The position numbers and the translations under genes are program-made. 31,036 bases of DNA, taken from positions 1 through 31,036 of the IMG/VR virus record IMGVR_UViG_3300027771_000062; one strand, written 5' to 3'. The notes under the pieces are model-generated. The model was given only the letters and a program-made list of their open reading frames with translations. It searched no databases and was not told the DNA's origin. Source of the stretch: a virus. Of this stretch, positions 11,101 through 29,440 are shown one piece after another (positions within the stretch are counted from its first letter, which is position 1; each line of letters starts with the position of its first letter).

Positions 11101-11617
11101 CAAACGAGCCTATACTATCGAAAATCTTAGTTCTTACTACTACATTTTTATAGATTCGAAAACAGCAATGAAGGGTTTTAATAAGTTTGAAGAGCAACGA
11201 AACAAAGAAGATAGCAACATAATGACTCTTGGTACCGGATACAACAAGGGATTAACAAGGAGCATTAAGTTTAAAGGAAACGATATCACTTATTTCCAAG
11301 AGGCTGCGGATGCTGTCCTAACAAGCAAGGAGGGTGACGACAGCGTTAGAAGGATGTTAAAATTTCATAACGCTGACGTATCCTTGTTTGGAAATACTAT
11401 TTTTTATCCTGGCATGATTGTATATATATCGCCTAGCTTCCCTGGAATCGGAAATCCATTCGGAAGTCCGGTGAGATCTGTTGTTACAGCAACCAATATT
11501 GCCAATAGCCTTGGAATAGGTGGTTATTACGTGATTACAAAGGTCAAGAGCAATATAGACTCCTCTGGAGGTTTCCAAACCTCTATAGAAGCTAATTATG
11601 AAGCGGGGGCTGAATAA
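8156..11617 (+). CDS. Very large baseplate-region structural protein, function unknown
   Basis: A 1153-residue acidic protein whose start follows the previous stop by one base, with GGGAG upstream. An N-terminal helical segment (about 1-120, rich in Ala and Glu) leads into a mostly beta-like body. The last about 80 residues (FYPGMIVYISPSFPGIGNPF and on to GIGGYYVITKVKSNI) resemble the C-terminal part of baseplate hub proteins, where a short beta domain ends in a GYYVVTKV type strand. No lysozyme or protease motif was recognised and there is no signal peptide. Its place between the gp53-like gene and another unknown structural gene suggests a hub or central spike component. The size would allow fusion of several hub functions. 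Role inferred from context and the C-terminus only. Confidence 0.6.
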   Translation: MGTLAMNRLWDDAKLAASEALKDAEEVVNAAGDSYTDDEEALRSALSAGGIKYHDVVIPNLTNYEKEAITNLNIAYKNVQEVLERGELDRDYKRLKGFIAEYRKWRLTYADNSNSPQSQAKMFYTFVKKNTSENDEEQVVALDLPVPTVRSGPPETSTDYFFEKIPNEAQHREHLIKAGFDPFYDKNTNPTGWIDLLFFRPHDEMVGAMGEVHRLSREEFENAATNSGFGTTEYLKILDRELLGKPQPTPTIMLNFIAWMDDRVLSQAILQASIKGIVGDQSVDTAVLEAPEAEEESPSVETIEIERRFQDQCFLTSNFNKIIENTSIKEFNYEHFISLQGEPFIATNNMTFHKGQRAFADLTSLEMSMLYPRIKLSKVFYDKGSGKTALNEIASVPFKFGTHNDFKDPSMLTMSKRARGDDAGIESFSFSFEGQDYATAEKIVVCNATYFFKSMSDFISDFKYGDKIYSYSDLAAYPAGRESFAIKAEVGWQTPDDLSTIAGSIRATKIQKAAKSAKLTIFLMVTSFNYEVNEDGSLKVFVEYRGWLNDKLSGLKFDIFINPSRGDGADDLEIATAEYAVSSIGHSGVHRRSFKLTDLMDRDLMVADLNLGVSLDDPRKSFINHISTIIINALSAPGQTGPSLDSIQGPLRNACVPPIIGDASPTTQGTNDDTFFDFLVGFSGTKAGSAAKRQRILQKFADQAKRHIKKIKEQGMLINHDGLLDEIFNEGIVFRVDIPKDSLSHYQNKNVNKSLTPSLRKTDDVMVKKDDFTVQQILSSDPKDPGKAQRELGGNLISSVNRAFRGRSARKNDARNFPAAGGPNGRFGAEGGYNIHFVTFGTILNTIMSRVYSLRSISKNAYIKKFNMIVGSASTEAGPFRGDDISIADIPVSLDLFSYWYLTEVMESAEVTYDVGKFVQNMLDKLILPALGADCQEDTEASDLYTVKGQVYNTTGKIMNNLKGSVLEKGDRLNGTDISAKGKRAYTIENLSSYYYIFIDSKTAMKGFNKFEEQRNKEDSNIMTLGTGYNKGLTRSIKFKGNDITYFQEAADAVLTSKEGDDSVRRMLKFHNADVSLFGNTIFYPGMIVYISPSFPGIGNPFGSPVRSVVTATNIANSLGIGGYYVITKVKSNIDSSGGFQTSIEANYEAGAE

Positions 11618-12851
11618 GTTGGTTGATAGAACAGCAAAACTTTACAAAGGTGGCATGAAAGCTGGCACCGCTTTTTTCTCTAGGCAGAACGAGGAAATAG
11701 AGTACCTCCTCCGCCGGAATATAACCAATGTGGGTTCCACTCGTGGCATACAAGGGCTTTATGGACTTGTAGACTTCCAATTTAATACGGTGAATATGAT
11801 GGGGAATTACCAGGATGGGCTAAGTAGTGGCCATCTAGTCATGACCAATAATAGTACAAATCCGGTCTTTGTAACTAAATTTGTTCATGATGCCTTTGAT
11901 GCCATGGCCATTTACTACGGTGTCGCCAAGAACCATAATAAAATAAAGACAAATGTTGGCTCTCTCGTTGATTTGAAGATTAAAAGAGGATACGAAAGTA
12001 TCAACAACACTCACGAAGCATATATGCAAACTTATTTTGAGTCTTTCACTGGCTACCTAAACTCAAGGGGCCTGATAGAAAAGATAGCAAACTTCAACGA
12101 ATTCATGAAACATTTCGAAGACTTTTTATATCAAGTAGTCATGGAAAACCCGATAACTAGGACCGGCTTTACTAGAAGCGTCTATTCCAATATATTAAAC
12201 GGAGGGCTCGCTATAGAGATAGAGAACATTAGCAAGTCTAAGGAGAACCGAAAGGTTAGTGACTTCTACGAAAACCCAAATTTTGATAATTTTTCAAAAA
12301 CAGCCGAGCATTTTGGGTTTGTTATCGATCGAGATGTCCCGTGGAGACTTATTGCCAATATCTCTTCGCCAAGAATGCAGATTTTTATGGAACAGCACGG
12401 AATAACAAAGCTTGGTTTGTTTGATGACCGTTATATAAGGACTGTTTTATTAGATATCAATATACTGATCAAGCACGCTGCAACATTCTACAATACATAC
12501 GTAGCAAGAGAGCCCGAGACCACCCGGCCTGAGTTGGTTTTTAACGAAAATTGCCCAAAAAGAGGCTCATATATTGGTTCTATCTCTTCTGGCACGCTAA
12601 AGATCAAGAAGTTCAGGAGAACAACAGTTAGTAAGAATAAAGCGATAGCAGATTATGGAATAAAACAGTGGGTGAAACTATACTTTAGGCTAAGGCTCGC
12701 GGAAGAAAAGATTGACATTTCTACAGCCGAGACAAATGCTCTCTTAACGTCGATATACGCGAGAAGCTTAAAAAATAATTCTATTGACTTGGTGGTCGGA
12801 GCCGTTTATAGTGACCTAGAAGTAAAAAGGCGCATTACTGTAGAGGTTTAA
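11598..12851 (+). CDS. Unknown protein, probable virion component
   Basis: 417 residues with no family recognised. It starts inside the preceding gene (20-base overlap), which indicates translational coupling. The N-terminus is basic (MKRGLNKLVDRTAKLYKGG); the body is mixed helix and strand with many aromatic residues, for example HEAYMQTYFESFTGYLNSRG. A central FVIDRDVPWRLIANISSPRM segment looks well conserved in style. The C-terminus carries a basic LKIKKFRRTTVSKNK stretch. No catalytic motif, signal peptide or membrane span is visible. Its neighbours are a large baseplate-region protein upstream and a DNA polymerase immediately downstream, so it marks the border of the tail and replication modules. 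It could belong to either, with a structural role more likely. Confidence 0.6.
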   Translation: MKRGLNKLVDRTAKLYKGGMKAGTAFFSRQNEEIEYLLRRNITNVGSTRGIQGLYGLVDFQFNTVNMMGNYQDGLSSGHLVMTNNSTNPVFVTKFVHDAFDAMAIYYGVAKNHNKIKTNVGSLVDLKIKRGYESINNTHEAYMQTYFESFTGYLNSRGLIEKIANFNEFMKHFEDFLYQVVMENPITRTGFTRSVYSNILNGGLAIEIENISKSKENRKVSDFYENPNFDNFSKTAEHFGFVIDRDVPWRLIANISSPRMQIFMEQHGITKLGLFDDRYIRTVLLDINILIKHAATFYNTYVAREPETTRPELVFNENCPKRGSYIGSISSGTLKIKKFRRTTVSKNKAIADYGIKQWVKLYFRLRLAEEKIDISTAETNALLTSIYARSLKNNSIDLVVGAVYSDLEVKRRITVEV

Positions 12852-14036
12852 ATGCTATTTCAGACGTTAGATGACAAAAAAGAATGTGTAGCGGTCTACA
12901 CTGACGGGAAACTAGACTTTGAGAGCGTACCTCCGGGTCTTACGAAGACCTGGAAGTATGTACCCTATGCTTCCGGGGACTTAGAGTGTGCATCCTTATA
13001 CTGCGTTGGATGTTCGTTAGAAGACGCGTGCCCACCCCACTTAAAAGAGAGGTGGGCGAACATAAATAAAAAGCTGCGCTCATTACAGCGCTCTTTCGAG
13101 ATTTCCCTTATTGACATGAACGAGCTTTGCTTTTTTGACCTGGTTCAAGACCGATTCCTCCTAGAATACTGTGATATCAAAAATCAGATATCTCAACATG
13201 TTTTTGATACACATGAGCGGCCTAAAAATTATGATTTTCTATTCGGCCTCTCTGAGGTTCTGTACAATATTCGGTATAAGAAACTAAACATTGATATTAA
13301 CGGATTGAAGGATATTTTTGCTAAGCCGAAAACCCGCGCTTTCCTTAAAAAAGTGAATCTCCTGTCCCCGAACGTTGAATATGATATCGCGGGGACACGA
13401 ACGGGAAGGCTCACTACAAAAAAGAATTCTTTTCCGATATTGACGCTTGATAAAGACTTCAGATCCCTGATCAAGCCTAATAACGATTTATTTGTCGAGC
13501 TAGACTTCAATGCGGCAGAGTTACGCACTATATTAGCACTTTCCGGTGTAGAGCAACCGCAGCAGGATATACACGAATGGATTGCCAAGGAGGTTTTTCT
13601 TTCCGGGGAACCTCGCGAAGACATAAAGAAAAAAGTCTTTGCATGGCTCTATAACCCCCTGGCAAAGAATGAGAAACTAGAACAGGTCTTCCAAAGACAG
13701 AAAATAACAGACAAGTACTTCGATGGAACCAGAGTTTTAACCCCATTTGATCGAAGTATCGAGGTAGATGAAAGAAGAGCGTTCAACTACATTGTACAAA
13801 GCACTACGAGCGACCTGTTCCTACGCTGTATGATAAAAGTTGCGAATCTGTTAAAGGGCAAAAAGTCCTATGTGGCTTTCTCTATTCATGACTCCCTTAT
13901 CATAGATCTTAGTATAGAGGACAGACCCCTTCTAGGAGAGATCGTTGAGGCATTCTCGGAGACTGATTTGGCAAAATTTAAAATAAACATGAGCGTAGGA
14001 GAAGACTATGGCTCCATGAAAACGAAGAGGCTATAA
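12852..14036 (+). CDS. Minimal family A (PolA-type) DNA polymerase
   Basis: Carries the family A catalytic motifs in order: TRTGRL (182-187); motif A DFNAAELR with D218, E223 and R225; motif B spacing R255-K259-F263-Y267, as in the Pol I fingers helix; N312 and Q316; and motif C H346-D347. Both catalytic aspartates and the nucleotide-binding Arg and Lys are present, so activity is plausible. Oddities: only 394 residues, against about 600 for a Klenow fragment; no room for a 3'-5' exonuclease and a much reduced thumb; Glu of the HDE motif replaced by Ser; the motif B Gly after Tyr replaced by Asn. The first 65 residues hold C46, C51, C54 and C60, a possible Zn or Fe-S site. It begins directly after the upstream stop and shares one base with the next gene. 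A separate DnaE exists at 26012, so a repair, bypass or specialised role is likely. Confidence 0.82.
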   Translation: MLFQTLDDKKECVAVYTDGKLDFESVPPGLTKTWKYVPYASGDLECASLYCVGCSLEDACPPHLKERWANINKKLRSLQRSFEISLIDMNELCFFDLVQDRFLLEYCDIKNQISQHVFDTHERPKNYDFLFGLSEVLYNIRYKKLNIDINGLKDIFAKPKTRAFLKKVNLLSPNVEYDIAGTRTGRLTTKKNSFPILTLDKDFRSLIKPNNDLFVELDFNAAELRTILALSGVEQPQQDIHEWIAKEVFLSGEPREDIKKKVFAWLYNPLAKNEKLEQVFQRQKITDKYFDGTRVLTPFDRSIEVDERRAFNYIVQSTTSDLFLRCMIKVANLLKGKKSYVAFSIHDSLIIDLSIEDRPLLGEIVEAFSETDLAKFKINMSVGEDYGSMKTKRL

Positions 14037-14881
14037 TGGAAACTATTATCGGATTAGGTGATGCGGGGTGCGCGATAGCTCACCAGTTTACTGAGTACCC
14101 ACAGTATAAGGTTCATAAGATAAACTCTAAAAAAAGTACGGAGGATAACTATCTCTATGTAACCCCCCAGAAGACACATGAAGATTACGAATCGAAGACG
14201 AGGCTAAAAAAAGCATTTTTTGAAAAGATAAGCGGCCCAATATTATTTATAGTGGGGGGATCGGGGGATATCTCTGGAGCCTGCCTGCGTATCTTAGAAA
14301 GGCTCAAAGACCACCCAACTTATGTTCTTTATATCAAGCCTGACACGTCTTTACTCTCTGAACTCAAAGAGAGACAACATAATGTAGTTTTTAATGTTCT
14401 ACAACAGTACGCGAGATCTGCGATGCTGGAGAGATTATATATTGTCGAGAACTCTAAAATAGAACAGGCCATTGGAGAGGTTCCCGTTATCGGATACACC
14501 GATACTATTAACCGCCTCCTTGTTTCAACTATCCACATGATCAATATTTGTGTGAACACAGACGCCGCTATCGACACATCTACTGACCCGCTGCCGATGT
14601 GTAGAATCTCCTCCATTGGGTTGGTGGACGTAGACACCGGGGAAATGAGATCCTTCTGCGAGATTGAACACCCTAGGCAGATAGTCTTTTATTACGCGAT
14701 CAATAATGAACGTTTAAAGACGGATGGGGCCTTACTACAAAAATTAACTTCCTTAGTTAAAGCTAAGAATGAAGAAAAATTACGAGCTTCATTCGCGATC
14801 TATCCTACTGAATATGAACAGGATTATGCTTACTGCGCCGTTCACTCGTCCTATGTGCAGGGACAAAAAATTGATTTATAG
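14036..14881 (+). CDS. Divergent FtsZ/tubulin-superfamily protein
   Basis: The 281 residues follow the FtsZ layout: a glycine-rich first loop GLGDAGC (6-12); hydrophobic strand ILFIV, then a GGSGDISGA loop (74-82) in the place of the tubulin signature GGGTGSG; a strand ending YIKPD (99-103) matching the FtsZ VVTKP motif; LYIVEN (134-139) in place of LIVIPND; and N174-T-D176 with D180 after a helix, resembling the catalytic T7 loop NxDxxD. The C-terminal half is plausibly the second FtsZ domain. FtsZ and TubZ are usually above 350 residues, so this is short. The altered signature loop leaves it open whether GTP is hydrolysed. It may form filaments, position phage DNA, or interfere with host division. 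Its start shares a base with the polymerase stop, and the SSB gene follows. Assignment is by motif order, without a search. Confidence 0.68.
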   Translation: METIIGLGDAGCAIAHQFTEYPQYKVHKINSKKSTEDNYLYVTPQKTHEDYESKTRLKKAFFEKISGPILFIVGGSGDISGACLRILERLKDHPTYVLYIKPDTSLLSELKERQHNVVFNVLQQYARSAMLERLYIVENSKIEQAIGEVPVIGYTDTINRLLVSTIHMINICVNTDAAIDTSTDPLPMCRISSIGLVDVDTGEMRSFCEIEHPRQIVFYYAINNERLKTDGALLQKLTSLVKAKNEEKLRASFAIYPTEYEQDYAYCAVHSSYVQGQKIDL

Positions 14882-14882
14882 C

Positions 14883-14981
14883 TTTACAAACGATTTTTTT
14901 TAGAGTAGAGTGTACTCACAATCGAGATGGTTGGAAAATTTGCTAACCATACTCTATCCTATTGATTAAAAGGAGTTTATC
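14883..14981 (+). promoter_or_regulatory. Promoter candidate and structured leader of the SSB gene
   Basis: TTTACA (14883-14888), a 17-base spacer and TAGAGT (14906-14911) form a moderate sigma70-like promoter. The leader holds GAGTA/TACTC (14903-14917) and ATGGTT/AACCAT (14927-14932 with 14945-14950). TAGAGT (14901-14906) can instead pair with ACTCTA (14951-14956), enclosing the second hairpin and excluding the first. T4 gp32 represses its own translation through a structured leader, so a similar control is plausible. AAAGGAG precedes the ATG. Confidence 0.45.
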
Positions 14982-15734
14982 ATGGGTATTGACATGTCTA
15001 AAATGAAAGAGAAGCTGGCGTCCTTGAACCGCAAGGGTTCCGAGAAGAATAACTTTTGGCGTCCAAAGGACGGGGAACAAACGATCCGCATTGTTCCTAC
15101 TGCGGATGGAGACCCATTTAAGGAGTTTTGGTTCCACTACAATCTTGGTAGTAACACACCCTTTCTGAGTCCGAAGAAGAATTTTGGAGACGAGTGTCCG
15201 CTTGACGATTTTGTTCGTACTCTTTACAAGCAGGGAGATCCTGATAGCGTCAAGATGGCGAAGAACCTTACTGCCCGACAGCGATTCTTCGCACCTGTGC
15301 TCGTTAGAGGAGAGGAAGAACAAGGGGTCCGAATCTGGGGTTTCGGTAAAACTGCGTACCAGGAGTTGCTGAACTTGGTTTTGAACCCGGATTATGGGGA
15401 CATCACTGATGTCGACAGCGGCACGGATTTGGTTATTGCTTATGGGAAACCGGCAGGGGCGCAGTTTCCGCAGACAAGTATTACACCACGCCGCCGCACG
15501 TCTCCTTTGGTTGAGGACAGTGACGAGTCTGCGCGTCTTCTGGACGCAATTCCTGATGTGACAACCTTGTTTGAGCGTCCTAGTCCAGAGGATGTTGGGA
15601 AGATGTTACATGATTACATGACTAGCATCGATGAGGAGATGTCTGCGTCTACGGGGATTAGTACAATAAGTACCGCCCCTACTAGCAAAGACAACTCTGT
15701 CGACAGTGCCTTTAACGAGTTAGTTAACTCGTAG
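14982..15734 (+). CDS. Single-stranded DNA-binding protein, T4 gp32-like
   Basis: Coats single-stranded DNA at the replication fork and in recombination. The N-terminus has the gp32 style basic stretch with KMKEKLASLNRKGSEKNNFW, followed by RPKDGEQTIRIVPTADGDPF and KEFWFHYNLG, which is the OB-fold entry seen in phage gp32 proteins. The core includes ARQRFFAPVLVRG and VRIWGFGKTAYQELLNLVLN, and the C-terminus is Ser/Asp-rich and acidic, as needed for partner binding. The length is 250 residues against 301 in T4. Only one Cys is visible (in DECPLDD), so the zinc site of T4 gp32 is apparently missing. The start at 14982 has AAAGGAG upstream; Met5 is an alternative. A long structured leader lies upstream and a strong stem-loop follows the stop. 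Confidence 0.87.
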   Translation: MGIDMSKMKEKLASLNRKGSEKNNFWRPKDGEQTIRIVPTADGDPFKEFWFHYNLGSNTPFLSPKKNFGDECPLDDFVRTLYKQGDPDSVKMAKNLTARQRFFAPVLVRGEEEQGVRIWGFGKTAYQELLNLVLNPDYGDITDVDSGTDLVIAYGKPAGAQFPQTSITPRRRTSPLVEDSDESARLLDAIPDVTTLFERPSPEDVGKMLHDYMTSIDEEMSASTGISTISTAPTSKDNSVDSAFNELVNS

Positions 15735-15818: not shown

Positions 15819-16943
15819 ATGGCAAGACATGGCAAAAAAGAAACAAATACGAATTTAGGTCGACTTAGCATGGATGAGATGCGGAAGATCATTAATCGGA
15901 AAGCCGGGTATGACCTGGCATATAATCTGACACAGGATAACCCAACACAGGTGAAGGGCTGGATACCAACAGGATCTAGGTGGCTTGACTCAATTATCTG
16001 TAAAGGAAGGTTGGCTGGGATCCCTGTTGGAAAAATAACTGAGATCGCCGGATTGGAGTCTACCGGGAAATCCTATGTGGCAGCCCAGATAGCAGCGAAC
16101 GCACAGAAACAAGACATAGATGTAATCTACTTTGACTCTGAATCCGCGATTGACCCGGAGTTCTTGACAAAGGCGGGTTGCGACCTTGAAAAAGTTTTAT
16201 ATATTCAAGCAGAGAGTGTAGAGTTTGTTCTAGAGACCATCGAGGAACTTTTGGGGAGCAACCAGAATAGGATGATCTTTATCTGGGATAGTCTGGCGTT
16301 AACTCCAGCGATTACTGACATCGAAGGGGACTTCAATCCCCTTTCCTCTATGGCGGTAAAACCTAGAATCCTGTCTAAGGGGATGGCAAAGCTAACAATA
16401 CCGCTTGCAAACGCGGAGGCTACACTACTCGTGCTAAACCAGCTTAAGACCAACATTACGTCTAATGTTGCAGAGGCGATGACAACGCCTTATTTCACTC
16501 CTGGAGGCAAAGCCATGCATTATGCATATGACTTACGCATCTGGCTAACTGGACGTAAGGCTAAGGCTTCTTTTGTCAAAGACGAAAACGGCTTTAGAGT
16601 TGGTTCGGAAGTTAAGGCGAGGTTAGAGAAGTCTAAGTTCGGGACTCAAGCCAGGGAGTGCACGTTTAAGATTCTCTGGGGAGATGAAGTAAGAGTACAA
16701 GATGAAGAAAGCTGGCTTGAAGCAATTAAGTCTTCGGAGCATTTCGAAACAAGAGGACCCTGGCACGCCATAACCTATAAGGACGGGACGCAAGAGAAAT
16801 TTCAGGGAGCCAGTTGGAATGAGAAGTTGAAAGACGAGAAATTTAAAACTCGTATCCTAGAGATTATGGAAGAAGAAATTATTTTAAAATTCCATAATAG
16901 GACAGGAGACGCCTCGGACTTTTATAATGTGGATGCGCAGTAA
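15819..16943 (+). CDS. uvsX: UvsX/RecA-like recombinase
   Basis: Catalyses ATP-dependent strand exchange and supports recombination-dependent replication with the gp32-like SSB. Walker A GLESTGKS lies at 78-85, the catalytic glutamate in YFDSESA is E108, and Walker B MIFIWDSLA (about 152-160) ends in D157. LLVLNQLKTNI followed by a MTTPYFTPGGKAMHY stretch corresponds to the L2 DNA-binding loop region of RecA/UvsX. The 374-residue length is close to T4 UvsX (391). The N-terminus is basic and polar; the C-terminal about 100 residues are charged and probably regulatory. AGGA precedes the ATG. It lies directly after SSB and a stem-loop, consistent with T4-type recombination functions being grouped. 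Confidence 0.92.
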   Translation: MARHGKKETNTNLGRLSMDEMRKIINRKAGYDLAYNLTQDNPTQVKGWIPTGSRWLDSIICKGRLAGIPVGKITEIAGLESTGKSYVAAQIAANAQKQDIDVIYFDSESAIDPEFLTKAGCDLEKVLYIQAESVEFVLETIEELLGSNQNRMIFIWDSLALTPAITDIEGDFNPLSSMAVKPRILSKGMAKLTIPLANAEATLLVLNQLKTNITSNVAEAMTTPYFTPGGKAMHYAYDLRIWLTGRKAKASFVKDENGFRVGSEVKARLEKSKFGTQARECTFKILWGDEVRVQDEESWLEAIKSSEHFETRGPWHAITYKDGTQEKFQGASWNEKLKDEKFKTRILEIMEEEIILKFHNRTGDASDFYNVDAQ

Positions 16944-22104: not shown

Positions 22105-22377
22105 GTGAGTTATAAACCAGTTAATAGAATGATTGTGGTGAACGTCAGTTTAAAAGAGGAGGAGACGCAGACTGTGGTACTTTTACCGGAAGGGGTTAGA
22201 CCCCCGGATCGGTATGGGAGCGGTACTGTGGAATCTATAGCGAGCGATTGCAAGATTGACGTTTCTGAAGGGGATGAAGTCGTCTTCGAGAATTCGATGC
22301 TCCAGACAGTCACCCTTGGGGACGAAGAAGTCAACATGCTATTAGAGAACTACGTCCTTGCCGTTGCGAGCGAATAA
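22105..22377 (+). CDS. GroES-like co-chaperonin (GTG start)
   Basis: A 90-residue protein with the GroES pattern: YKPVNRMIVVNV at the start, a polar mobile loop (residues 16-25), VVLLPEGVRPPDRYGSGTVE, DCKIDVSEGDEVVFENSML and the closing strand ENYVLAVASE. The mobile loop EEETQTVVLLP is where GroES binds GroEL. Phages such as T4 (gp31) encode a substitute lid so that their capsid protein folds in the host GroEL. The roof hairpin is shortened and divergent. The start is GTG with AGGAG six bases upstream, overlapping the reductase stop. No GroEL is encoded here, so the host chaperonin would be the partner. Confidence 0.78.
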   Translation: MSYKPVNRMIVVNVSLKEEETQTVVLLPEGVRPPDRYGSGTVESIASDCKIDVSEGDEVVFENSMLQTVTLGDEEVNMLLENYVLAVASE

Positions 22378-23757: not shown

Positions 23758-24626
23758 TGGAGCCGGGCTACCATCTTGCCGGTATTGTTCCTGTTGCAGG
23801 GCGAAAGCTAGATTTTAATATGCCATGGCACGATTGCCTTATGCCGATAGCACAAGATTACCTCGCTGTCGAGAGATCTATTATAGATTGTAGCTACGCC
23901 GGGTGTGAAACAATATTCGTTATTTGTCATACCGACATGATGCCGTTGATAAAAGCGCGTCTCGGAGATTTTGTAGAGGACCCGGTGTACGCGTATAGGA
24001 ACTTCGAGAATTTTTCCCATGAAGTTAGGGTGAGGATCCCAATATACTATGTGGCGATCCACCCGCACGACCGGGACAAAAGAGACAGCCTCGCGTGGAG
24101 TGTCCTTTACGGGACTAAGACCGCGAACGAGATGATCGGGAGACTCAGCAGTTGGCTAGTGCCGAACAAGTTTTTTGTTTCTTTCCCATACGGGGTCCAT
24201 AACCCGGAGTTTTTAAGGAGCCACCGGAGGGTGATTTCCAGTCCGAAAAATTTTTCCCTATCTTGGCAGGGCAAAACCGTTATTGACGAAGAATATTTAC
24301 CATTTACGTTCGATTATCAACAGTGCTTATACTTTATAGATATGGTCAAAGAGAACGGCACTGCTAGATATGAGAATCAAGATTGGGGGGACAGAAAGGT
24401 ATCGCTTCCTATAGAAGAACAATATTCTGCTCGCTTTTTCTCTTTAAATGATGTATTCTATGACCTAGTGCTTGAGCGGATTGAGGAGACCCCTTACTAC
24501 TTTAATATAAGCAGTTGGGATGGTTACCAAAACTATATGGCCAACAAACCGGATGACATATGCCGACCCGCTAAAAGAATACTAAGCCCCCACCTATTAA
24601 AAGGAATCGGAATAGAGAATGAGTGA
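23757..24626 (+). CDS. Nucleotidyltransferase-like protein (GTG start)
   Basis: The N-terminal part resembles sugar-phosphate nucleotidyltransferases. LAGIVPVAGRKLDFNMPWHD takes the place of the glycine- and Arg-rich NTP loop, LMPIAQDYLAVERSIIDCSY is the following helix region, AGCETIFVICHTDMMPLIKA the second strand and helix, and RIPIYYVAIHPHDRDKRDSL the later strand. The classical GxGTRxxP loop is changed to VAGRKLDFNMPW, so the substrate cannot be inferred. The C-terminal half is unusual, with aromatic-rich NISSWDGYQNYM near the end. The GTG start shares its G with the preceding TAG stop, and the end overlaps the cysteine synthase gene by 8 bases. It could activate a sugar or another small molecule for modification of phage DNA, the virion or the host surface. 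Confidence 0.62.
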   Translation: MEPGYHLAGIVPVAGRKLDFNMPWHDCLMPIAQDYLAVERSIIDCSYAGCETIFVICHTDMMPLIKARLGDFVEDPVYAYRNFENFSHEVRVRIPIYYVAIHPHDRDKRDSLAWSVLYGTKTANEMIGRLSSWLVPNKFFVSFPYGVHNPEFLRSHRRVISSPKNFSLSWQGKTVIDEEYLPFTFDYQQCLYFIDMVKENGTARYENQDWGDRKVSLPIEEQYSARFFSLNDVFYDLVLERIEETPYYFNISSWDGYQNYMANKPDDICRPAKRILSPHLLKGIGIENE

Positions 24627-25485
24627 TATTTTAAACTACATTGGTGAGACTCCCCTCATACAAATAAACCCAAGACTATACGCCAAGCTTGAAACATATA
24701 ACCCGACCGGGTCTATTAAGGACAGAATGGCCTACTACGTCTTGACAAAGGCGGAGGAGAGAGGAGAGCTAAAGCCGGGTGATACTATAGTCGAGGCGTC
24801 GTCGGGGAATACGGGAATTTCTTTTTCTATGCTCGGCTCTGTTAAAGGTTATAACGTTATCGTGATCCTACCTTGCAACATGAGCGAGGAGAGAAAGCAG
24901 ATGATAAGGTTATTTGGAGCAACAATAATAGAGGTTGGGCAAAGTGACTTCAAAGGCGCTATAGCCCTAAGAGATAAGATGGTAGAAGAGAATGAAAGCT
25001 ATTTCTCTCCTAGACAATTTAGCAACGCCGACAACGTCAGTTGTCATGAATGGACAACCGGCTTTGAGATTAAAAAGCAGTTGATCCAGAGGAAAGAAGG
25101 AAAAATTGCGGCGATTGTGTCTGGAGCCGGGACCGGTGGGACTATAATGGGTGTGAAGAGGGCTCTAGAACGCTTCGCAGACCCCCTACCAAAGTTCTTG
25201 ATGGTGATGCCTGCCGAGGGAGCCAACCATGGCATACAGGGTATCGGAGACGGTGGTGACTACCTTGTTAATCGTGAAGAAATAGACGATACAATCGATA
25301 TCACCACGGTGGAGGCCGTTGAAAGAGCGAAAAAATTGGCGAGAGGGCACGGTCTCTTTGTAGGGATTAGCGCGGGAGCTAATGTATTGGCGTCCGAGCG
25401 GTGGATGGAAGATAATGAATTTGAGGGTGTTGTGGTCACATTCTTGTGTGATCGCGGCGAGAGATACTTGAGTATTTTTGATTGA
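24619..25485 (+). CDS. Cysteine synthase-like PLP enzyme (auxiliary metabolic gene)
   Basis: Fold type II PLP enzyme of the O-acetylserine sulfhydrylase (CysK/CysM) family, which makes cysteine from O-acetylserine and sulfide. Key features: ILNYIGETPLIQI, the PLP lysine K34 in NPTGSIKDR, the substrate loop SSGNTG (61-66), the phosphate loop SGAGTGGTIMG (about 172-182), HGIQGIGDGG (about 203-212) and GISAGAN (about 252-258). It has 288 residues, against about 310-323 in CysK; the loss is mainly in the N-terminal loop between TPL and the PLP site. All catalytic motifs are kept, so it is probably active, though a related substrate such as phosphoserine is possible. It starts inside the nucleotidyltransferase gene (ATGAGTGA overlap). 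A promoter overlaps its stop codon. Confidence 0.87.
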   Translation: MSDILNYIGETPLIQINPRLYAKLETYNPTGSIKDRMAYYVLTKAEERGELKPGDTIVEASSGNTGISFSMLGSVKGYNVIVILPCNMSEERKQMIRLFGATIIEVGQSDFKGAIALRDKMVEENESYFSPRQFSNADNVSCHEWTTGFEIKKQLIQRKEGKIAAIVSGAGTGGTIMGVKRALERFADPLPKFLMVMPAEGANHGIQGIGDGGDYLVNREEIDDTIDITTVEAVERAKKLARGHGLFVGISAGANVLASERWMEDNEFEGVVVTFLCDRGERYLSIFD

Positions 25486-25529: not shown

Positions 25530-26015
25530 ATGAGCACAAGGCAGGGGTGGATTAACATGTGTGTGGAGACGGTTAGAAAACATTTCTTTACGGAAGAGAA
25601 AAAGTGTAAAGGTTTCCAGTGTCCTGCTTGTGATAGAAGGGTCAAATACGATGATAGGCCCATAAACAAAACCATGGCCATGGGTCTTAAATGGCTTGAT
25701 GGAGCCTGCGGCGGTAATTACATTCATATCGCCCACAACATACCAAATCATCTGAACAGCAAACAACTGACTACACTAAAACACTGGGGTCTCGTGGAGA
25801 GAGGCACTCCGGGACACTGGAGGCCCACCCGATTGGGTTACGAGTTCTCAAAGGGTACTACTCCGGTCCATTTGAGGGCTAGGATTTTTCATGATAGGTG
25901 TGAAGGTTTGTTTGGGGACAAGATATATATAGACCAACTCCTGGAAGGATTCGAATACAGTGATACTATGAAACCGGCAGATTCGACAGCTAAACTTATG
26001 AGGAAAAATCAATGA
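25530..26015 (+). CDS. Cys-rich winged-helix-like protein, function unknown
   Basis: About 162 residues. The N-terminal part has CKGFQCPACDRR (C-x4-C-x2-C), a possible metal site with a further Cys in GACGGNY. This is followed by a region that reads like a winged helix: NSKQLTTLKHWGLVERGTPG, then HWRPTRLGYEFSKG. Such a pattern suits a DNA-binding regulator, but no family was recognised. Start choice: two adjacent ATG codons at 25527 and 25530. AAGGAG at 25518-25523 gives a 6-base spacing to the second. A TTG at 25482 in the same frame is rejected because it is the -35 box of the promoter. The last four bases, ATGA, overlap the dnaE start, so the two genes are coupled; it might regulate or assist the polymerase. 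Confidence 0.7.
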   Translation: MSTRQGWINMCVETVRKHFFTEEKKCKGFQCPACDRRVKYDDRPINKTMAMGLKWLDGACGGNYIHIAHNIPNHLNSKQLTTLKHWGLVERGTPGHWRPTRLGYEFSKGTTPVHLRARIFHDRCEGLFGDKIYIDQLLEGFEYSDTMKPADSTAKLMRKNQ

Positions 26016-29000
26016 CAGACAGAAAAAAATCATCAATACCTTTTGTAGGGTTGCACGCACATAGTGTAGTGGGGTCCCCCTTCGATGCACTTGGGTACCC
26101 GCAGGAACACATGGACTTCGCCTACGAGAACGGCAGTGATGCCCTCGCGCTCACGGACCATGGCAACGCCAATGGTATGTCCTACCAGGTGTTGCATGCT
26201 CGAAAGATGAAAGAGCAGGGGAAAGACTTTAAACCTATCTTCGGTGTTGAAGCTTACTTCCTGCCTTCTATCGATAAGTGGAAAGAAGCGTATGAGAAAG
26301 CGAAAGAAGATAAGAAAGAAGCAAGGAAACTAAAAAACTCGGACAACATGGCTATCGAGAACGAGGGTGATTCCAAGGCGAAAGCCAACATAATCAAGAA
26401 GAAGAACCATCTTATACTAATCGCGCAAAATCAAATAGGACTTAACAACATATTCTCGCTCATATCTAAATCGTATGAGGGGGAAAATCGTTATCGTTAC
26501 CCACGTCTTGACTATAAATTATTGGAGGAACATAATGAGGGTATTATTGCTTCGTCTGCTTGCCTTGGCGGTGTTTACGCAGGTAACTATTGGGATAATC
26601 GTGATGATGGCGCGGATGCTGTTCTAGCCGCGATGAGAGAGACCACGGAAAATATGCAGTCGATCTTTGGGGACCGATGGTATGGAGAACTTCAGTGGTT
26701 CTCAGCCCCGGAACAACACGAGTTGAACAATTATATTATAGACGTATCTAAAGAGTATAATATGGAGTTGATATCGACGGCAGACAGTCACTACCCAACT
26801 CCAACTGCGTGGAAGGACCGTGAGCTATATAAAAGACTTGGGTTCCTCGGCAGGGCTCAGAAGCCGGAGTGGATGACAGATGAACTACCTATGGATGTCG
26901 AGGATTTGGGGATGGAACTGTTCCCTAAAAACGGAGACCAGATGTGGGAGGACTACAAAAAGTATTCTTCTCTGTGCGGGGTGGAATACGATGACGACCT
27001 CGTAATGAAGTCTATTACGAATACACACAAGATTGCTTTTGAGAGAATCGAGTCCTTTATGCCTGACAGCACGGTGAGGCTGCCGGAGTTTGTCGTACCC
27101 CCGGACCATACAGCAACAGGAGCACTCACTAAGTTAGCTATCACGGGTCTAAAAAGCATGGACCTCCACAAGAAGATGAACTATATCGATAGGTTGAAAG
27201 AGGAAATAAAAATTATTGATGAGAGAGGGTTTAGCAAGTATTTCTTGACCATGAAGGCTATCGCGGATAGAGCTAACGATGTTATGCTCTCTGGTCCTGG
27301 AAGAGGCAGTGCTGCCGGGTCTCTTTTATCCTATGTACTGGGCATAACGCAGATCGACCCCATTAAGTATGACCTCCTCTTCTCCAGGTTCATGAGAAGG
27401 GACGCTACCGATTATCCGGATATCGACTACGATGTTAGTGACCGGATGAAGTTGACGAACTTGTTAATCGACGAATGGGGAGCGAATACGGTTGTGCCAA
27501 TCTCCAACTATAACACTCTCCAGCTTCGTTCCTTGATTAAGGATGTCTCAAAGTTTTATAATGTGCCCTTCACTGAGGTGAACCCGGTCACGTCGAAGAT
27601 GATTGAAGAGGCCACACCAGCGGCGAAGAAGAAGCATGGTATTAAGTCTGGGGTGTACACACCCACCTTTGAGGAGACAATGGAATTTTCGACTACACTA
27701 CAAAAGTACCTAGAAAAATATCCCTTCATAAAAACTCATATTGAGGCAATTTACGGCTCAGTCCGTTCGATCAGCCGACATGCGGGTGGTGTTGTTATTG
27801 GGGAGCAGTTAGATAAATACATGCCCCTTATTACAAACAAGGGAGTCACACAGACACCATGGTCGGAGGGCCAGAACGTCAGGCACCTGGAACCCCTTGG
27901 GTTCATCAAGTTCGACTTCCTGGGGCTAAGCACCCTTAGAATGATTGAAGTCGCCATCGAGCACATTCTGGAGCGGTATCACGGAATAGAGGACGTGACC
28001 TATAATGATGTTAAAGAGTACTACGACAAAAATCTCCACCCCGATGTCATAGATCTAAACGATAAGAATGTATACGAGAACATATTCCATAAGGGGAACT
28101 TTGCGGGAGTGTTTCAGTTTACGCAGGAGGGAGCGCAAGAGTTTTGTATGAGAGCAAAACCAAAAAACATTATTGACATCTCCGCGATTACGTCGATTTA
28201 CCGACCAGGCCCGTTAGGGGCCAACGTAGATAAATCCTATGTTGAGGCGAAGGGGAACCCGGATAACATACATTATATACACCCATTATTAAGGGAGGTC
28301 ACCCAAGAGACCTATGGTTTCCTGATATTCCAAGAACAGATTGCGCTACTAGCACACAAACTAGGTAAGAATGTTTCTCTTGATGAGGGGAACGCTCTGA
28401 GAAAGCTTCTGACAAAGAAGGGTACAGGGAAAGACGCATCTGAGAAAGACAAGATTCAAAAGAAATTTGTTGAAGGATGTATAGAGAAGAACATAGATAA
28501 GGTTAGCGCCGAGAAGCTATGGGCAAACTTTGAATACTTCTCCGGCTATGGGTTTAACAAGAGCCACGCGGTTTCGTACTCGGTTCTAAGTTACCAGTGT
28601 GCGTGGCTACTGAACTACTATCCTTCTGAGTGGGTAGCTGCCTTCCTGGATCGGGAGCCGGAAGGCCGGAAGGAACAAGCCATCAATATTGTTAAAAAGA
28701 TGGGGTATGAGGTGCAGCCGATTGATATTAACCTTTCTACGACCAAGTGGTCTATTGAAGAAGATAACAAGAGTCTGCGCCAACCGTTTAACTCCATAAA
28801 AGGTCTTGGAGAAGCAGCGATTAAACAAATTATGGATAACAGGCCTTTTAACACTGCGGAGGAACTGCTATTTAACGAAGGAATCTCTTATTCGAAGTTG
28901 AACAAAAAGGTTATAGATGTTCTTTGTAGGTGTGGAGCACTAGACAATCTTATAGATGAAAGATTTACTGGTGACAAACATTTCTGGGGGGCAGTCGCAT

Positions 29001-29440
29001 GTGAGAGACCTAAAAACAAAAAAAAGTTTCTAAATAATATTGAGGCATTTGCGGAGCAGGGTAGTTTTAGTGATGAGGAGAAGATTAGGCATATCTCTGA
29101 TTTGACCGGAGTGTTCCCCTTCGATATTGTTGTTAACAAAGACGTACAGAGAAAACTGCAAGAGTATTGTGTTCCGCCCCTTGGGGAATGGGACGAGGAC
29201 CTGGGGGTTGCTTGGTTCATACCTCGGGAGATAGTTAGAAAGAAGACCAAAAATGGCAAAGACTATTGGGTTGTAAGAGCCTTAGACCCAACCTCTACGA
29301 TTACTAGTATTAAGTGCTGGGGGATAAAAAAGGATGAGGAATTGCACATCAACAGACCCTATATGGCGAAGCTAGATTATGACGACCAATGGGGCTTTTC
29401 TACGAGGTCTATCAGGCATAACTTTAAATTGCTGGGGTAG
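26012..29440 (+). CDS. dnaE: DNA polymerase III alpha subunit (DnaE-type, family C)
   Basis: Main replicative polymerase candidate. An N-terminal PHP domain starts with H15-A-H17 and DALALTDHGN (about 43-52). The family C core follows: GPGRGSAAGSLLSYVLGITQ (428-447), the catalytic aspartates in YPDIDYDVSDR (D470, D472) and the third in FIKFDFLGL (D635), an RPGPLGANVD loop (about 731-740), and GYGFNKSHAVSYSVLSYQCA further on. A helix-hairpin-helix region around IKGLGEAAIKQIMDNRPFNT fits the C-terminal DNA-binding part. The 1142-residue length matches bacterial DnaE (1160), so it is complete and no intein is seen. T4-like phages usually use a family B polymerase, so this is a replacement. A separate proofreading subunit was not found here. 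The start ATG overlaps the preceding stop. Confidence 0.94.
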   Translation: MTDRKKSSIPFVGLHAHSVVGSPFDALGYPQEHMDFAYENGSDALALTDHGNANGMSYQVLHARKMKEQGKDFKPIFGVEAYFLPSIDKWKEAYEKAKEDKKEARKLKNSDNMAIENEGDSKAKANIIKKKNHLILIAQNQIGLNNIFSLISKSYEGENRYRYPRLDYKLLEEHNEGIIASSACLGGVYAGNYWDNRDDGADAVLAAMRETTENMQSIFGDRWYGELQWFSAPEQHELNNYIIDVSKEYNMELISTADSHYPTPTAWKDRELYKRLGFLGRAQKPEWMTDELPMDVEDLGMELFPKNGDQMWEDYKKYSSLCGVEYDDDLVMKSITNTHKIAFERIESFMPDSTVRLPEFVVPPDHTATGALTKLAITGLKSMDLHKKMNYIDRLKEEIKIIDERGFSKYFLTMKAIADRANDVMLSGPGRGSAAGSLLSYVLGITQIDPIKYDLLFSRFMRRDATDYPDIDYDVSDRMKLTNLLIDEWGANTVVPISNYNTLQLRSLIKDVSKFYNVPFTEVNPVTSKMIEEATPAAKKKHGIKSGVYTPTFEETMEFSTTLQKYLEKYPFIKTHIEAIYGSVRSISRHAGGVVIGEQLDKYMPLITNKGVTQTPWSEGQNVRHLEPLGFIKFDFLGLSTLRMIEVAIEHILERYHGIEDVTYNDVKEYYDKNLHPDVIDLNDKNVYENIFHKGNFAGVFQFTQEGAQEFCMRAKPKNIIDISAITSIYRPGPLGANVDKSYVEAKGNPDNIHYIHPLLREVTQETYGFLIFQEQIALLAHKLGKNVSLDEGNALRKLLTKKGTGKDASEKDKIQKKFVEGCIEKNIDKVSAEKLWANFEYFSGYGFNKSHAVSYSVLSYQCAWLLNYYPSEWVAAFLDREPEGRKEQAINIVKKMGYEVQPIDINLSTTKWSIEEDNKSLRQPFNSIKGLGEAAIKQIMDNRPFNTAEELLFNEGISYSKLNKKVIDVLCRCGALDNLIDERFTGDKHFWGAVACERPKNKKKFLNNIEAFAEQGSFSDEEKIRHISDLTGVFPFDIVVNKDVQRKLQEYCVPPLGEWDEDLGVAWFIPREIVRKKTKNGKDYWVVRALDPTSTITSIKCWGIKKDEELHINRPYMAKLDYDDQWGFSTRSIRHNFKLLG

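Follow-up and report, generated by a model that had tools for sequence, protein, structure and literature searches.

In the viral record IMGVR_UViG_3300027771_000062 of IMG/VR, a reading frame at positions 14036 to 14881 lies between genes for a short DNA polymerase and a single-strand-DNA-binding protein (SSB), and the question it raises is whether its product belongs to the FtsZ/tubulin superfamily and what such a protein might do within a replication module. The whole stretch of DNA analysed, 31,036 nucleotides of that record, is referred to below as the window. A first-pass annotation, made from the letters alone, had described a short, altered tubulin-like protein whose gene shares one base with that of a "mini polymerase" and lies before SSB; the reading frame and the motifs quoted for it are present in the window. 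Searched on its own, the window protein returned nothing significant from Pfam, PHROGs, PDB sequences or GenBank phages.

Genomic setting, relatives and phage group

The gene and the neighbours discussed below are as follows.

12852 to 14036, + strand: mini family-A DNA polymerase, 394 aa (PF00476, DNA_pol_A, E 1.7e-15; PHROG 17, E 7.9e-19)
14036 to 14881, + strand: FtsZ/tubulin-fold gene, 281 aa (open reading frame, family alignment, AlphaFold2 model, Foldseek, hhalign)
14882 to 14981, + strand: leader of 100 bp separating the FtsZ-fold gene from SSB, with a conserved hairpin
14982 to 15734, + strand: gp32-like SSB (PF08804, E 2.7e-11; PHROG 1192, E 1.2e-23)
15819 to 16943, + strand: UvsX/RecA-like recombinase of the same module (PHROG 97, E 2.5e-51)
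26012 to 29440: full-length bacterial-type polymerase III alpha with a PHP domain

The first-pass description of the gene pair was accurate in detail: the TAA of the polymerase frame ends at 14036, on the same A with which the ATG of the FtsZ-fold gene begins, and the polymerase itself, at 394 aa with its DNA_pol_A match, is indeed a miniature enzyme. Among close relatives the FtsZ-fold gene is under strong purifying selection, with a dN/dS of 0.046 against the relative L003 (pN 0.095 and pS 0.71, with synonymous sites near saturation) and of approximately 0.08 between the relatives L004 and L005 (pN 0.026, pS 0.264).

Close relatives of the window protein, one of which is partial, were found at seven IMG/VR loci; SSB lies downstream at every locus, and the same polymerase lies upstream wherever the contig extends far enough. 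More distant members were recruited through these neighbours, using SSB and the mini-polymerase as bait in IMG/VR and then running the protein profile iteratively over all open reading frames of the fetched loci, at almost every one of which a homologue adjoins SSB. Redundancy removal at 85% resulted in 119 non-redundant members, and an alignment of 68 family sequences (A5) was used for structure modelling. A direct profile search of IMG/VR identified the family on at least 595 contigs. The gene, taken at first for the oddity of one phage, thus belongs to the core genes of a large group of uncultured phages, and its status as an orphan specific to the window was dropped after the neighbour-baited search had returned many relatives. 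The idea of a cultured relative was likewise dropped, as tblastn with three queries spanning the family found no member in 50,697 GenBank phage records and the A5 profile had no match in Mel-JY01, RM378 or phiKZ.

The gene order is close to invariant across the family. The first-pass annotation had proposed looking for the same gene pair in related phages, and the mini-polymerase was found upstream in all 106 members with enough sequence (68 of them within 30 nt; median gap 8 nt), with SSB downstream in 118 of 119 members (median 92 nt), so that both the pairing and the position before SSB hold well beyond the window. At four loci (L049, L078, L087 and L092) there are extra genes between the protein and SSB, and none between the protein and the polymerase. 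The FtsZ-fold gene is inherited together with both partners, its pairwise protein distances correlating with those of SSB (r 0.73; permutation maximum 0.17) and of the polymerase (r 0.73; permutation maximum 0.15). Of the 61 SSB loci whose upstream sequence exceeds 1.2 kb, two (L067 and L068) are without the gene, a pattern that fits loss and displacement alike; in both, other reading frames occupy the site and the end of the contig is no more than 3 kb away. In the Microcystis phage Mel-JY01 the mini-polymerase, SSB and UvsX occur with no detectable FtsZ-fold copy, and the module can therefore function without it.

Further features were observed around the gene. Directly upstream of the mini-polymerase, a basic 417-aa protein (11598 to 12851; pI 9.45) is conserved in relatives and has no Pfam or PHROG match. 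The leader at 14882 to 14981 is highly conserved in six relatives, and contains a promoter-like pair TTTACA...TATAGT (TAGAGT in the window) and, ahead of the SSB ribosome-binding site, an 11-bp hairpin (ATGGTTGG...CTAACCAT) with weak covariation support. Gene 32 of T4 is autoregulated, and by analogy the leader hairpin may serve in autoregulation of SSB. Upstream of SSB in three different phages, unrelated-looking reading frames carry DNA-methyltransferase-like motifs (DPPW/DPPY, recognised by eye; L049:5025-5600, L186:6759-7742 and L067:561-1538), an arrangement reminiscent of a site of insertion. A small reading frame of approximately 85-90 aa with the motif TGxFTKxxGxxRTMxFVR also recurs before SSB in several divergent relatives (L049:5646-5918, L087:5528-5779 and L092:3128-3388).

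A T4-type Gp23 capsid gene was present in 13 of 13 long contigs tested and a bacterial-type polymerase III alpha in 12 of 13, which therefore assigns these phages to a lineage of T4-superfamily myoviruses that have two polymerases, in the window the family-A enzyme of just 394 aa and polymerase III alpha. Further along the window come UvsX, an exonuclease and a DnaB-type helicase, and a ribonucleotide reductase lies within the same gene cluster. In its general features the lineage resembles the uncultivated Far-T4 phages (PMC4360716). The cluster also contains, among unknown genes, a GroES-like co-chaperonin (22105 to 22377), as well as a pyridoxal-phosphate-dependent enzyme (PALP, E 2e-58; 24619 to 25485). 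A piece of the same phage cluster (L113:7514-12870) was also observed in a contig assigned by binning to candidate division WOR-3, where the bin or the assembly is probably chimaeric; as the phage piece breaks off abruptly inside UvsX, it carries little information on the host.

Fold and homology to FtsZ

The AlphaFold2 model built for the window protein family on the 68-sequence alignment was confident (pLDDT 95.1, pTM 0.92) and was the only one relied on, the model from only six close homologues being unusable (pLDDT 38.7). A Foldseek search of this model against the PDB returned 562 matches at E<=0.001, and the 50 matches listed were without exception FtsZ or TubZ (lowest E 8.3e-13; query TM 0.60-0.73; identity 9-16%), in agreement with the FtsZ/tubulin-like fold originally proposed. 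In profile-profile comparison with 26 FtsZ sequences, hhalign gave the family a score of 56.3 (E 3.3e-7) over 159 columns, compared with a maximum of 20.2 across 60 column-shuffles, 15.4 for the reversed alignment, and 16.5 and 15.1 for two unrelated families from the window. The 119-sequence alignment scored 53.3 against a shuffled maximum of 23.8, and global alignment to FtsZ extends through the C-terminal domain, over the whole length. Because the profile-profile score lies far above the shuffled, reversed and unrelated-family controls, these results support genuine homology of the protein to FtsZ/tubulin in both of its domains, and not just a similarity of fold. The Pfam Tubulin profile matches just three of the 68 members, with a best E of 0.011.

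A different fold, or a better match to another Rossmann-type family, had been named at the outset as grounds for abandoning the assignment, and neither was found. The candidate to be weighed is a Rossmann-type NAD-binding protein of the TrkA_N/KTN kind with no FtsZ fold, since TrkA_N was the commonest weak Pfam match (16 of 68 members, best E 0.0019) and KtrA the top PDB sequence match (E 0.011). However, the fold search returned FtsZ and TubZ with both domains, the hhalign score of TrkA_N was 32.2 over 32 columns against 56.3 over 159 columns for FtsZ, and the window protein reached 15.0 bits against a cut-off of 23.8 for a whole-domain TrkA_N match, leaving this explanation hardly credible. 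Weak matches to TrkA_N, MIF, UvrC, KtrA and alcohol dehydrogenases were considered and dropped.

Motifs retained, lost and new

Alignment to FtsZ and the secondary structure of the model divide the protein as follows.

14051 to 14074, + strand: T1-equivalent loop, aa 6-13; G6 in 96%, G8 in 100% and G11 in 94% of 119 members (hhalign)
14174 to 14191, + strand: T3-equivalent [ST][PH]E[ED]YE, aa 47-52; E49 in 95%, Y51 in 90% (hhalign)
14255 to 14278, + strand: altered T4/tubulin-signature loop GGSGDISG, aa 74-81; two residues shorter than in FtsZ (hhalign gap)
14402 to 14419, + strand: motif Q123-x-Y125-x-R127-S128 at the end of helix H4; 100, 95, 100 and 100% of 119 members
14450 to 14452, + strand: N139, the Asn of FtsZ PND; 92% of 119 members (hhalign)
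14495 to 14512, + strand: start of core helix H7, aa 154-159 (Y154, 155, N159; model, hhalign)
14534 to 14605, + strand: end of H7 (HMxN) and a short loop replacing T7 and H8, aa 167-190 (DSSP of the model)
14606 to 14848, + strand: C-terminal domain, aa 191-271, with S7, S8, H10, S9 and S10 (DSSP, global hhalign)

The five motif parallels drawn at first reading fared unevenly. By hhalign, GLGDAGC corresponds to T1, GGSGDISGA to T4, YIKPD to strand S5 and LYIVEN to the PND strand, but N174-T-D176...D180 does not correspond to the T7 loop, its spacing being NxDxxxD rather than NxDxxD and positions 176 and 180 varying freely. The T7 motif NxDxx[DE] occurs within aa 167-190 in none of the 119 members, and there is no catalytic acidic pair. 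The T3-equivalent aligns with the NPE of FtsZ loop T3, with several residues missing ahead of it. The signature loop is changed, as had been noted, and the canonical [SAG]GGTG[SAT]G was found in T4 in 0/119 members.

Judging from residue conservation, much of the nucleotide pocket is retained. The author used the FtsZ alignment to pick 26 pocket-equivalent positions, and 11 of these rank among the 45 most conserved positions, an enrichment over the 4.2 expected (hypergeometric p 7e-4). The residues at the start of H7 align with guanine-contacting positions of FtsZ, including N159 (conserved in 93% of 119 members) and position 155, which by alignment matches the base-stacking Phe of FtsZ and is aromatic in approximately 80% of members and T in the window protein. 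The nearly invariant Q-x-Y-x-R-S is a new motif specific to this family, and H167-M168-x-N170 is also strongly conserved across the 119 members, at the end of H7. In FtsZ, helices H4 and H7 have their C-terminal ends on the face turned toward the next subunit and away from the nucleotide, and by analogy these two motifs would lie on the side opposite the nucleotide.

The remaining differences are reductions. In the AlphaFold2 model aa 174-190 form no helix, i.e. H8 is absent, and H9 is missing by DSSP. Q275 is conserved in 93% of members, most of which end no more than approximately 10 residues beyond it. The C-terminal linker and anchor peptide of FtsZ are absent from the family, as are the H11 and acidic tail of PhuZ, the last element of the model being strand 264-271, followed by approximately 10 residues. 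The original description of a short, altered tubulin-like protein therefore fits a product of 281 aa that has lost the signature, T7 and H8.

FtsZ is the best match of the family both by profile and among the 50 PDB matches listed, and the two share both domains in order, the T1 loop, the PND-strand Asn and the H7 Asn. Unlike FtsZ, the 281-aa phage protein has a shorter pre-T3 loop and a T4 reduced by two residues, and is without the T7 motif, H8, H9, C-terminal linker and anchor peptide. PhuZ and phiKZ TubZ of the Chimalliviridae, which are nucleus-forming jumbo phages, are likewise phage-encoded proteins of FtsZ/tubulin fold, but the profile match to PhuZ is weaker than that to FtsZ (score 42.9, E 3.2e-5, shuffled maximum 17.9), and the present family differs in its altered signature and in having no H11, acidic tail or T7 motif. 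Unlike the PhuZ phages, the phages here have a T4-type Gp23 capsid, with the gene located in the replication module. Bacillus cereus TubZ (4ei7) shares the fold (E 5e-12, 15% identity), but in contrast to this plasmid and phage segregation protein the phage product is far shorter, with no C-terminal extension and no recognised segregation partner. The closest viral fold match, in BFVD, was A0A6J5RW92 (E 6e-13, TM 0.77 on the query, 18% identity), an 'FtsZ Cell division GTPase' of an uncultured Caudovirales phage that has 452 aa against 281 aa here. By description, the family can also be likened to the FtsZl families of bacteria and archaea, cellular proteins linked to membrane remodelling (Makarova and Koonin 2010, PMC2875224), as a divergent side branch of the superfamily found by profile methods. 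With the signature, the T7 loop and the family tails absent, the protein falls outside canonical FtsZ, tubulin, TubZ and PhuZ, and a search of the freely accessible journal literature revealed no earlier account of this family.

Possible roles in the replication module

The preferred explanation, to which a probability of roughly 45% is assigned, is that this reduced FtsZ/tubulin protein acts as a nucleotide-gated accessory or scaffold of the replication-recombination module and forms no treadmilling filament. The remaining pocket would still bind guanine nucleotide, while hydrolysis by the classical mechanism, with T7 inserted into the next subunit, would not occur, and the protein would therefore behave as a slow or static nucleotide-gated switch. 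Through its Q-x-Y-x-R-S/HMxN side it may form short head-to-tail assemblies or bind a fixed partner, and those contacts could bring the mini-polymerase to SSB-coated DNA or arrange it there. The fold, the homology, the lost T7 and signature, the pocket enrichment, the synteny, the co-inheritance and the purifying selection together would argue for such a role. Against it, shared synteny can arise from common descent alone, the window protein has T at position 155 where most relatives have an aromatic residue, and the Mel-JY01 module is without an FtsZ-fold copy. Put forward more tentatively is a tubulin-superfamily protein that has abandoned the cytoskeleton and become part of the core replisome in a large, uncultured branch of T4-superfamily phages, where nucleotide binding without T7-type hydrolysis would assemble a complex of the mini-polymerase and SSB.

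The main competing explanation is a phage cytoskeleton, in which head-to-tail filaments position or confine the replicating genome in the manner of PhuZ or TubZ, with GTP hydrolysed by non-T7 residues or with assembly driven by binding instead. The FtsZ/TubZ fold, the conserved nucleotide pocket, and the two conserved motifs Q-x-Y-x-R-S and HMxN, on the subunit-contacting side by FtsZ topology, are all consistent with filaments. However, T7 is found in 0/119 members, H8 is absent and T4 is shortened, and there is neither a PhuZ-type H11 or acidic tail nor an FtsZ tail, whereas in published work on phiKZ TubZ its C-terminal tail and a canonical T7 interface matter for polymerisation (PMC3678025), and filaments are considered rather unlikely. 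Less likely than filaments are two further explanations. The retained pocket without a hydrolysis loop, and the ribonucleotide reductase in the same gene cluster, could point to a non-cytoskeletal nucleotide sensor or enzyme, e.g. a monomeric regulator of the nucleotide pool that works together with that reductase; this is improbable, the gene adjoining the polymerase and SSB rather than the reductase and no catalytic motif being recognised. A decoy that caps or poisons host FtsZ filaments and so blocks division ranks lower still: an FtsZ homologue minus its catalytic side would suit a capper, but identity to FtsZ structures is low (approximately 10-14%), the gene always accompanies the polymerase and SSB, and the strongest conservation lies in the family-specific motif rather than an FtsZ-like interface.

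In a published survey, phage tubulins distinguish the nucleus-forming jumbo phages, with only a handful found elsewhere, based on profile searches at E below 1e-5 (PMC11835377). Searches of that kind do not see the present family, yet at least 595 IMG/VR contigs carry it. The family represents a second, separate phage use of the fold, in the replication cluster of T4-superfamily myoviruses, which suggests that phages have redeployed a cytoskeletal fold within a module for DNA replication. Its members are also naturally occurring FtsZ homologues without the catalytic loop, with which one can ask which parts of the FtsZ fold serve nucleotide binding, assembly and hydrolysis.
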